From NCBI RefSeq assembly GCF_900163545.1, contig NZ_FUHW01000038.1:248001-312000 (forward strand): DNA of 64,000 nt, in the 5' to 3' direction. The position numbers were made by a program, and so were the translations under genes. Below the pieces are notes generated by a model, which worked only from the letters and a program-made list of their open reading frames with translations, was not told the origin of the DNA and made no database searches. Below, one piece after another: positions 8,699 to 11,314 of the stretch (within the stretch, counting starts at the first letter, position 1; each line of letters starts with the position of its first letter). Origin of the DNA: Arthrobacter rhombi. Its GTDB lineage: Bacteria; Actinomycetota; Actinomycetes; Actinomycetales; Micrococcaceae.

Positions 8699-8870
8699 CT
8701 CGACTTCCCGGAGGTGGAAATGCAGACTATCCTTGAAGAAGCGCAGGTATTAACAAGCGCATCAGATGCACTTGCGACAGCGGGAACAATGCAGTTGTGA
8801 GAACCGTTGACATCTATATAGGGGTTCTCCGCAGGGAGACCGACGGACACGAGGGATTGGGGAAGGGATC

Positions 8871-9236
8871 ATGCCACTTTCCGAACACGAGCAGCACTTG
8901 CTCGAGCAGCTGGAAAAGCAACTGCACGAGGATCACAAGTTTGCCTCCTCGATGAAGTCAAGCGCCTCACCCGGCGGGTATTCCACACGAAACATCGCCA
9001 TCGGCGCCATTATCGGCATCATGGGTATCATCGCCCTGTTGCTGGGCGTCTCGAGCCAATGGATTCCAGTGGGCGTCTTGGGCTTCGCGTTGATGTGTGG
9101 TGGCGTCTATGTCGCCTTTTCCAAGAATGCTCTGGGCAAGGTTGGCAAGGGCAAAGCCAAGTCAGGGACGCAGAAGAGTTCCTTCATGGCTGACCTTGAA
9201 TCCAAATGGGAAGCCCGCCATCGGGACGAACACTAA
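8871..9236 (+). CDS. DUF3040 small membrane protein
   Basis: A 121-residue protein with the DUF3040 signature MPLSEHEQHLLEQLEKQL, then two hydrophobic helices (about 41-61 and 64-84) and a Lys-rich C-terminus. This family commonly sits just upstream of mraZ in actinobacteria; its function is unknown. It has a good ribosome binding site (GGGGAAGG, spacing about 5) and its own terminator at 9299-9331, so it is probably transcribed apart from mraZ. A TATATA element lies at 8815-8820 in the 172-nt upstream gap, with no convincing -35. Confidence 0.8.
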   Translation: MPLSEHEQHLLEQLEKQLHEDHKFASSMKSSASPGGYSTRNIAIGAIIGIMGIIALLLGVSSQWIPVGVLGFALMCGGVYVAFSKNALGKVGKGKAKSGTQKSSFMADLESKWEARHRDEH

Positions 9237-9254
9237 AGCTCACTAACTCGTCGT

Positions 9255-9275
9255 CGGGCCTGGCCACCAGGCCCG
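9255..9275 (+). terminator. First hairpin after the DUF3040 gene
   Basis: A perfect 9-bp stem, CGGGCCTGG with its complement and a CCA loop, 18 nt after the stop codon. There is no T run; it probably assists the hairpin that follows. Confidence 0.5.
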
Positions 9276-9298
9276 AAGAGGCAGCAACAGATACCGCA

Positions 9299-9331
9299 GA
9301 GCGCGGGCCATGATGGCCGGCGCTCTTTTTT
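9299..9331 (+). terminator. Rho-independent terminator after the DUF3040 gene
   Basis: GAGCGCGGGCCA pairs with TGGCCGGCGCTC (11 of 12 positions, one G-G mismatch) over a TGA loop and is followed by TTTTTT. This is one of the few classical T-tailed terminators in the window and separates the DUF3040 gene from mraZ. Confidence 0.85.
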
Positions 9332-9367
9332 GTGCCCGGTGAACGACGCCCCGGGCAACGTGGTGAT

Positions 9368-9555
9368 CCCCACATGCCCGGGGTTCGATATTGCTCCAGG
9401 TGTCTCCCGAAGACCCTCCACTTCTCACCACCGGGTTCCTCCACTTTGCCCCACCACAGTTCCGGGGCGAGCAAAAAACGTATGATTCCGCAGATTTGCA
9501 CCCGAATCGTCATCCAGCGCGCCGTTTTGCTCCAAAATCCCTCCACTCTTCCCCA
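9368..9555 (-). promoter_or_regulatory. MraZ-box-like clusters in inverted orientation upstream of mraZ
   Basis: On the minus strand the region contains TGGGG-N5-TGGAG at 9453-9439 and TGGGG-N5-TGGAG-N6-TGGAG at 9555-9530, with single TGGAG or TGGGG boxes at 9420-9416, 9398-9394 and 9372-9368. The 10-bp spacing and box sequence match the array on the plus strand over the mraZ promoter. No minus-strand gene starts here. The rest of the 9332-9620 interval shows nothing coding. Confidence 0.5.
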
Positions 9556-9623
9556 CACCCCTGCTTCCCAGTGATTGCAAGGAAAAGAATTTGCCCGATT
9601 GGTGGGAAAACTACCGTGTGTCG

Positions 9624-9675
9624 TTGACAGTGGGGCATTGTGGAGTAAAGTGGGGGACTGTAGAGGTGATTGGGG
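9624..9675 (+). promoter_or_regulatory. mraZ/dcw promoter overlapped by five 10-bp-spaced MraZ boxes
   Basis: TTGACA (9624-9629) and TAAAGT (9646-9651), 16 bp apart, form a promoter. TGGGG, TGGAG, TGGGG, TAGAG and TGGGG begin at 9631, 9641, 9651, 9661 and 9671, i.e. once per helical turn. This is the arrangement of the TGGGN-N5 operator through which MraZ represses its own operon in other bacteria. The expected mRNA leader is about 60 nt. Confidence 0.8.
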
Positions 9676-9720
9676 ATGACGGGGTGGATGTAGCTCCTTG
9701 AAGACGGGAAGGCGGTGCGT

Positions 9721-10152
9721 ATGTTCCTCGGGACGTACACGCCGCGTCTTGACGAAAAGGGGCGCATTATTCTTCCTGCCAAATACCGCGATGAACTGGC
9801 TAACGGGCTGGTTTTGACCCGGGGGCAGGAACGCTGCGTCTACGTCTTCAGCCAGCGGGAATTTGAGAACGTGCATGAGCAGATGCGTCAAGCACCGTTG
9901 TCCTCGCGGCAGGCACGGGATTACATCCGTGTTTTCCTCTCCGGCGCCTCTGATGAGATGCCGGATAAGCAGGGCAGGGTCACCATCCCGGGGGCACTGC
10001 GCAGCTACGCCGGACTGGACCGTGAGGTCACCGTCATCGGTGCGGGGTCTCGAGCCGAGATCTGGGATACCCAGGCTTGGAACGAATACCTCGAAGAACA
10101 GGAGAACACGTTCTCCGAAACAGATGAAGAAGTACTGCCGGGCATTTTCTAG
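9721..10152 (+). CDS. mraZ: Transcriptional regulator MraZ
   Basis: A 143-residue protein with two tandem SpoVT-AbrB-like DNA-binding domains, each with the DKQGR/DEKGR signature ([18 protein letters not shown] and [15 protein letters not shown]). MraZ forms ring oligomers that bind TGGGN direct repeats upstream of its own gene and represses the dcw operon. The family starts MFLGTYTP, so the ATG at 9721 is preferred over the GTG at 9715; GGGAAGG lies at a suitable distance. First gene of the dcw cluster. The 169 nt to rsmH contain a hairpin but no terminator T run. Confidence 0.93.
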
Positions 10153-10211
10153 AACCGACTAGAAGCGCTCGGTGGGGTTGGACCAGATCTCCAGCCGCCC
10201 GTCAGCATCGT

Positions 10212-10237
10212 CCTGGCTCCACTTCCCCGGAGCCAGG
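10212..10237 (+). other. Intra-operon hairpin between mraZ and rsmH
   Basis: A perfect 9-bp stem (CCTGGCTCC and complement) with an 8-nt loop and no T run. It may be a processing or partial attenuation point within the operon. Confidence 0.4.
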
Positions 10238-10321
10238 CGGATGAGGATCGGAGCGGAGGGGGATCTGGCCCAATCCCTACACCACGATTGCAAGCTGTGA
10301 CACGCTGAAAGGGGACAGGGT

Positions 10322-11314
10322 ATGACCGACGACATCACACCCCGTCCCACATCCGAGCGGCACGTACCAGTGCTGCTCGAACGTTGTGTAGGGCTGTTGG
10401 CGCCGTCGATCCAGGCAGGGATCGACCAGCGCGAACGGGCCGTCGTCGTTGATTGCACGCTCGGCATGGGCGGGCATTCGGAGGCGCTGTTGCGTCGTTT
10501 CGACCAGCTACACCTGATCGGGCTGGATCGCGACGAGCAGGCACTTGCTTTGGCGGGGGAGCGGCTGGCGCCGTTCTCCCACAGGACGGATCTGGTCCAC
10601 GCCGTCTACGACGAAATCGATGACGTGGTCGAAGACCTCGGTTTCGACGGCGTGGATGGTGTGCTGTTCGACCTGGGTGTTTCTTCGCTTCAGCTCGATG
10701 AACGCGAACGCGGTTTCGCCTACTCCTTCGACGCTCCGCTGGATATGCGCATGGACACCTCAACCGGTCCGACAGCGGCGGATGTGGTCAACAGCTACTC
10801 CGAAACAGACCTGGTCCGGGTGATCCGCACCTGGGGCGAGGAGAAATTCGCGGGCAGGATCGCTTCGACCATCGTCCGTGACCGGGGGGAACGCCCTTTC
10901 GCCACCACCGGCCAGCTGGTGGAGAGCATCCGTAGTGTCGTGCCGGCGGCCGCCGCCCGGACCGGGGGCCATCCCGCCAAAAGGACCTTCCAAGCCCTGC
11001 GCATCGAAGTTAACGAAGAACTCGATGTGCTGGACCGGGCACTGCCCGCCTCCATGGATGTACTGAACATCGGTGGTCGTGTGGTCGTGATGAGTTACCA
11101 CTCCCTGGAGGACAAGCTGGCGAAGAAGCATTTCGCGGCAGCCTCCAAATCCTCGGCACCTCTCGGGTTTCCGGTCGAGCTTGAGGAACATAAGGCCCGG
11201 TTCCGGAGCCTGACCAAGGGAACCGAGAAGCCGAATGACACTGAAATTGACGAGAATCCCCGCGCGGCATCAGCCAAGCTCCGTGCGGTGGAACGAATCC
11301 TGAAGAGGAGCTGA
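10322..11314 (+). CDS. rsmH: 16S rRNA (cytosine(1402)-N(4))-methyltransferase
   Basis: A 330-residue class I SAM-dependent methyltransferase that N4-methylates C1402 of 16S rRNA. The SAM loop is CTLGMGGHS (45-53), and further conserved blocks are [19 protein letters not shown]-like sequence near 110-125 and [14 protein letters not shown] near 225. Length is usual. ATG at 10322 with ribosome binding site AAAGGGG. The ftsL start lies 2 nt after the stop, so they are co-translated from one mRNA. Conserved position between mraZ and ftsL. Confidence 0.95.

Follow-up and report, generated by a model that had tools for sequence, protein, structure and literature searches.

Inverted MraZ-type boxes upstream of the mraZ promoter in Arthrobacter rhombi and its relatives as candidate auxiliary operators

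Many bacteria regulate their division genes through MraZ, and in Arthrobacter rhombi the promoter of the mraZ gene is preceded by MraZ-type boxes that face the other way. These reverse boxes are real and go beyond chance, and across related genomes they are kept at whole helical turns from the promoter, clearly when near and more weakly when far. Comparative analysis of the sequences makes it probable that the reverse boxes are auxiliary MraZ operators, which would form a repression loop together with the array at the promoter. The original prediction had suggested that facing arrays could support looping or multivalent MraZ binding, or drive an antisense RNA into the DUF3040 gene; its first part has gained comparative support from the reverse sites in 88 of 91 order loci, their one-sided orientation and their helical-turn spacing, and its antisense part is unsupported.

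Reverse boxes at the mraZ locus

The window (the whole stretch of DNA that was analysed, 64,000 nucleotides long) belongs to a 3.33-Mb genome. Its MraZ is 98–99% identical to MraZ in two Micrococcaceae bacterium records and passes the PF02381 profile cut-off in two stretches (125.9 bits vs 23). A DinB-like polymerase gene precedes the DUF3040 gene, after which come mraZ and mraW (10322-11314), and the features of the region are as follows.

8871-9236, plus strand: DUF3040 gene (PF11239), the upstream gene, in the same direction as mraZ
9298-9331, plus strand: terminator-like hairpin with T-run after the DUF3040 gene, between that gene and the boxes
9416-9430, minus strand: R2b, second distal reverse pair TGGTGAGAAGTGGAG, TGGTG-N5-TGGAG, 210 bp from forward box 2
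9439-9453, minus strand: R2a, distal reverse pair TGGGGCAAAGTGGAG, 187 bp upstream of forward box 2
9530-9534, minus strand: single reverse TGGAG, possible weak third box, 21 bp from the start of R1
9541-9555, minus strand: R1, proximal reverse pair TGGGGAAGAGTGGAG, 85 bp upstream of forward box 2
9556-9623, no strand: putative loop DNA from R1 to the promoter, covered by the AT profile over order loci
9624-9651, plus strand: mraZ promoter from the promoter scan, -35 TTGACA at 9624-9629 and -10 TAAAGT at 9646-9651
9631-9675, plus strand: forward MraZ-type box array with a period of 10, overlapping the -10 element
9721-10152, plus strand: mraZ (PF02381), whose product is the presumed repressor binding the boxes, with an alternative start GTG at 9715

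The mraZ promoter is the sole promoter-like site that the promoter scan found in 9200-9760. Its array consists of TGGGG at 9631, TGGAG at 9641, TGGGG at 9651, a degenerate TAGAG at 9661 and TGGGG at 9671. In the logo of 88 core sites from the relatives both the -35 and the -10 elements are visible and boxes 1-3 are strong, followed by AAGAG at box 4 (45-90% per position) and TGG at box 5 (53-80%). The degenerate box 4 of the window (9661-9665, plus strand) sits near the expected transcription start. On the distal side, the box-bearing stretch is bounded by the hairpin at 9298-9331; the fold of 9290-9340 has an energy of -24.7 kcal/mol (z -2.52), and the hairpin is absent from the output of the terminator scan. 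Two further elements were recorded in the region. The Rfam mraW RNA motif RF01746 lies at 10169-10286 on the plus strand, between mraZ and mraW (51.9 bits, gathering threshold 50), as the sole match in the Rfam scan of 8700-10500, where the upstream stretch gave no match reaching E 1. A minus-strand ORF at 9184-9891 has no Pfam match at E 0.001 and is read as a shadow of mraZ.

Both TGGGG-N5-TGGAG pairs that the original prediction placed at 9453-9439 and 9555-9541 are present on the minus strand. The TGGAG or TGGGG boxes that it listed as isolated, at 9534, 9420, 9398 and 9372, are present as well, except that the box at 9420 is not isolated: it is the second half of R2b, which lies 23 bp beyond R2a. 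The lone boxes at 9398 and 9372 prove nothing alone. Altogether, 9340-9600 contains eight single TGGRG boxes on the minus strand and none on the plus strand. A comparison with shuffled sequence had been proposed along with the boxes, and in 5000 dinucleotide shuffles (mean 2.38) the eight minus-strand boxes were never reached; pairs had a mean of 0.015 in shuffles of this 261-bp stretch, and at least two appeared in 1 of 5000. Over the 64-kb window there are 4 pairs against 1.17 expected, a number matched in 2 of 100 shuffles, and this signal is less extreme because the window is mostly coding. In the 3.33-Mb genome TGGRG-N5-TGGRG occurs 27 times and the reversed control pattern 33 times, with four of the 27 lying within 217 bp here, two forward and two reverse; GTGGDG-N4-GTGGDG occurs 12 times (control 12), with five occurrences at the mraZ locus. 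The genome-wide total of pairs is thus at background, and it is the clustering at the mraZ locus that stands out.

Conservation, orientation and helical phase across relatives

The sample comprised 80 named loci with two more of the window's genus, 52 loci of the window's order (order loci) and 47 of the class (class loci), with order, class and family as assigned in the genome resource. The titles of the named loci point to Micrococcaceae and also to genera such as Leifsonia and Herbiconiux. The window itself (L081) was left out, as were 10 of the 52 order and 4 of the 47 class loci, in which the mraZ start was unrecognised; among 168 upstream stretches 4 fell short of 450 bases, and near-duplicates made up 34 of 164. 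One record (L069), titled Vibrio cholerae strain 35D, has an mraZ locus 77% identical to that of the window, amid actinobacterial matches, and is probably mislabelled or contaminated.

In the sets that still included near-duplicates, 66 of 83 named, 36 of 42 order and 12 of 43 class loci had one or more reverse TGGDG-N5-TGGDG upstream of the core. Forward pairs beyond -200, a rule under which those within 200 bp count as core, occurred in no named, one order and no class locus, and the reversed-pattern control gave 1 and 0 (plus and minus strand) in named, 1 and 4 in order and 2 and 0 in class loci. When the core was defined by a TA-type rule (104 loci taken, 26 left out), six further forward pairs appeared in 5 of the 104 loci, one of them just 13 bp from the core. 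After de-duplication, 91 order loci held 122 reverse TGGDG-N5-TGGDG upstream of the core, distributed over 73 loci, and one forward, against dinucleotide-shuffle means of 1.14 reverse (maximum 4) and 0.28 forward. The de-duplicated class set had 18 reverse sites in 11 of 39 loci, where 0.17 were expected.

In a cross-validated design, with one half of the order loci used to train a matrix and the other to test it, reverse sites scored at threshold 12 in 88 of 91 order loci and forward sites in 1 of 91, leaving 3 of 91 without any site. The reversed matrix on the reverse strand scores in 14 of 91 order loci at the same threshold, so single weak sites are uncertain. Applied to class loci outside the order, the order matrix found reverse sites in 11 of 34 and forward sites in 3 of 34, with 5 of 39 loci that have no forward array left out of the count. 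Among the 26 loci outside the class that the search returned, reverse pairs occurred in three, all of one family (f58), and forward pairs in 12. A further family (f37, comprising G077 and relatives) lacks mraZ in roughly half of its sampled genomes, with a match in 30 of 61, 29 of them over the cut-off, and mraW was kept in all three examined; the mraZ start was recognised in 4 of 10 of its mraZ-bearing loci, with forward pairs in four and reverse pairs in two.

Reverse pairs and forward boxes 1-2 have in common, according to their logos, the TGGRG box, the period of 10 bp and a linker rich in A that ends in AAG. At position 3 of the box, forward and reverse boxes show weak covariation (Spearman 0.23, p 0.024, n=93). 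A reverse site lies within 140 bp in 68 of 91 order loci and at 140 bp or more in 73 of 91, and 53 of 91 have both kinds. The commonest gaps between successive reverse matrix sites were 12 bp (20 of 119 cases), 22-23 bp (16) and 10 bp (10), and the boxes seem to alternate between 10 and 12-13 bp.

The position of the reverse sites, measured from forward box 2 to the 5' end of the site, is phased with the helix. All 71 sites closer than 135 bp lie at 61-62, 71-74, 83-86, 94-96, 102-107, 117-119 or 128-130 bp; in the two sites at 61-62 bp the core was taken one box early, a fault from which the 62-63-bp rows of the genome scan described below are free. These near sites give a resultant of 0.83 at a best period of 11.2, where the highest of 400 jittered sets, maximised over periods, reached 0.41, and a single comb takes in 93% of them to within 1.75 bp, compared with at most 65% in 100 jittered sets. 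At a period of exactly 10.5 their resultant is 0.67, compared with 0.83 at about 11.2; the best period shifts with the subset, from 11.2 to 11.5, and is 10.3 for the gaps between reverse sites. For the nearest sites of the order sample outside the window's family the resultant is 0.78 (n=31; highest jittered, 0.58). From 135 bp outwards the phase of the sites is weaker, at 0.42 (n=136; highest jittered, 0.28), with far-site distances such as 135, 138, 140, 141 and 148 bp that do not fall on a clean comb, and class loci outside the order show off-comb distances such as 138, 142 and 144 bp. The distance from core to start codon, used as a negative control, is unphased (resultant 0.09).

The loci are related, and the jitter null ignores kinship. 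A tree of MraZ and MraW that used 61 of 79 loci yielded 28 disjoint pairs, between whose members the reverse-site distance differed by 0-2 bp in 17 pairs, by at least 8 bp in 11 and by 3-7 bp in none; in the same pairs the core-to-start distance differed by 3-7 bp in 8 of 28 (Fisher p 0.004). A multiple of 11.2, give or take 2 bp, accounts for just 7 of the 11 larger differences (control 3 of 14), and the comb is therefore strong, not perfect. A scan of 396 order genomes in which any gap of 60-90 bp was allowed gave a match in 167, and it is partly new, as it overlaps 59 genomes of the order sample. Among the 150 matches listed of these 167, the window's own family having rows in the remainder, the gap was 62-63 bp in 6, 71-75 bp in 134 and 83-85 bp in 10, with none at 64-70, 76-82 or 86-90 bp; the reversed control pattern gave none among the rows listed. 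Most rows have 71-73 bp in common, which may reflect descent, and the informative part of the scan is the 16 departures, each by about one turn.

A putative repression loop and competing readings

We propose that a ring of MraZ would assemble on the forward array, where it would cover the -10 element of the promoter of mraZ and the dcw operon. MraZ would also occupy R1 and R2, two-box sites of opposite orientation on the same helix face at 85, 187 and 210 bp upstream, and the DNA between the bound sites would loop, so that autorepression of the dcw operon may become tighter and more cooperative. R1 and R2 could be reached by unused DNA-binding subunits of the ring on the forward array or through its pairing with a second ring. 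For one ring of cyclic symmetry, a simple wrap would by our reasoning favour direct, not inverted, orientation; two rings back to back, or a crossing path of the DNA, must be considered. Across 91 order loci the AT content rises from about 33% in the more distant DNA to a peak of 46% in the interval 41-50 bp upstream of box 2, and this peak between R1 and the promoter would ease bending; an UP-like element would look similar.

In this proposal we infer MraZ as the binder, the formation of the loop and repression as its effect, and several published observations are consistent with it. MraZ is described as repressing its own operon in E. coli and the cluster in Mycoplasma genitalium (PMC8475190), and as forming an octameric toroid on promoter repeats (PMC7761207, citing Fisunov). 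Judging by entry titles, structures of the MraZ family have been solved alone and with promoter DNA (9r4j, 9sz7), in one case with a 4-box promoter (M. genitalium, 9sz7); the toroid and the promoter complexes make spare DNA-binding subunits plausible. The helical repeat obtained in vivo from lac loops is given as 11 bp per turn (PMC8501960) and as about 10.9 (PMC1831498), with which the period near 11 observed here agrees, and this counts for a loop. In addition, lac constructs with loops of 70-85 bp have been assayed for repression in E. coli, and the data were reported to support help from negative supercoiling (PMC5081198). Genomes that have no mraZ also bear on the binder: four of the eight asked gave an mraW locus, and none of these four has a forward or reverse pair upstream of mraW. 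This agrees weakly with MraZ as the binder, as the whole region may be lost with the gene.

The competing reading that survives best is multivalent MraZ binding that involves no loop, in which R1 and R2 would act separately, by titrating MraZ or by covering the DNA upstream with it. Such binding would suit sites that are both single and clustered, and the number of sites differs from one in 66 of 91 order loci (three of them have none); yet independent sites need neither a fixed helical phase nor a one-sided orientation, which leaves this reading unlikely.

We regard as slightly less likely still that R1, bound by MraZ or another protein, is an upstream activating site touching RNA polymerase or a partner on the same face. 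Class I activators act from the same helix face, so that same-face spacing suits activators too, and a second conserved motif raises the possibility that another factor acts there. This motif, CWGGTCA (often GCAGGTCA) on the minus strand, adjoins R1 in many order loci outside the window's family. With 36-66 bp allowed between motif and core, 60 of 139 order genomes (largely genomes of the 396-genome scan) and 13 of 20 families have it, at 58-61 bp from forward box 2 in 59 genomes and at 49 bp in one, and its reversed control has a match in one genome. In sampled loci (such as L088, L105 and L109) its position appears by eye to move in turn-like steps from 38 to 96 bp. Against an activating site, the motif is absent from all 10 genomes scanned in the window's family, among them that of the window, and the reported role of MraZ in E. 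coli and Mycoplasma genitalium is that of a repressor (PMC8475190).

It is improbable that another regulator, with a motif that resembles the MraZ box, binds the reverse sites. The reverse sites have the core, linker and 10-bp period of the forward array, 5 of the 12 genome matches of the pair motif lie at this locus, and the box is unlike the GTAAC-type motif of MtrA. In its favour, MtrA has been reported to bind the mraZ promoter in Dietzia (PMC9602371), which indicates that other regulators act on this promoter in related bacteria.

An antisense promoter, with the reverse boxes as its operator and an RNA running into the DUF3040 gene, is suggested by orientation alone, and we consider it very improbable. 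The best -35/-10 match out of 12 positions averaged 4.26 over 163 reverse sites, equal to random upstream places (4.32) and far from the forward core (8.02), and none of the 163 reverse sites has a -35/-10 pair with at least 9 of 12 matches, which makes an antisense promoter unlikely within the -35/-10 type that the scans cover. The promoter scan found no minus-strand promoter-like site in 9200-9760, none appears in the logos, and the hairpin with its T-run, predicted on the plus strand, lies between the boxes and the DUF3040 gene.

Chance or composition is the least credible reading: the minus strand is G-rich here, a paper on drug targets in S. aureus mentions the mraZ promoter in connection with G-quadruplexes (PMC11796246), and a G3 quadruplex pattern occurs on the reverse strand in 27 of 125 loci (forward, 4 of 125), but shuffles and reversed patterns fail to reproduce the sites, and the reverse strand lacks such a pattern in 98 of the 125 loci and in the window, so the quadruplex is not general.

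Repression through a loop is the reading that we retain as probable. We lean, with only somewhat more confidence than doubt, towards the wider proposal that actinobacterial MraZ rings use inverted, directional auxiliary operators to clamp the dcw promoter in a defined loop, that these operators have shifted in evolution mostly by whole turns, and that a second factor (recognising the minus-strand GCAGGTCA-like motif) takes part in the same loop in 13 of 20 sampled families. If true, conserved, phase-locked and inverted operators would give a use for the spare DNA-binding subunits of MraZ and would let a large group of bacteria control its division genes in a switch-like manner; as the box is directional, the geometry of the loop would be readable from sequence.

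Comparison with known systems

The mraW RNA motif RF01746 is likewise a conserved cis element of this operon, but it is an RNA element downstream of mraZ and is unrelated to the DNA boxes upstream.

The E. coli mraZ promoter carries TGGG repeats. MraZ boxes have been described as AAAGTG[T/G] direct repeats in Mollicutes (PMC8475190) and as four 7-nt repeats with 3-nt spacers in Burkholderia (PMC7761207). Like these, the array in the window places short direct repeats that contain GTG at the mraZ promoter, with one repeat every 10 bp, and a GTG-core box at this period is found both forward and reverse as GTGGRG-N4-GTGGRG, upstream of mraZ and the dcw cluster, with reverse sites in 88 of 91 order loci. 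Four consecutive boxes, the number of the 4-box promoter, are reached by the forward array solely with the degenerate box 4, and the reverse sites are pairs, single or clustered, so we class them as operator-like and not as standard operators. The arrays described in the sources cited above form one promoter set, whereas here inverted distal two-box sets are added at whole turns. Among the matches listed in the open-access literature there was no earlier description of distal or inverted MraZ boxes, and an earlier mention is possible.

A close parallel is offered by the auxiliary operators of lac, whose repressor is a tetramer of two dimers; gal and ara are other repression loops. In lac as here, distal sites that seem to serve the promoter's own repressor are constrained in phase, with the near site at 60-130 bp. 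Whole-turn spacing is found for the near sites and more weakly for the far ones, and the same motif occurs in both places, presumably for the same binder. Unlike lac, the box here is directional, the distal sites are consistently inverted and the protein is a ring, and the putative system is known from sequence comparison. An autorepressor with auxiliary operators is thus the familiar part; the new part would be auxiliary operators in an unexpected regulator, with directional and inverted sites.
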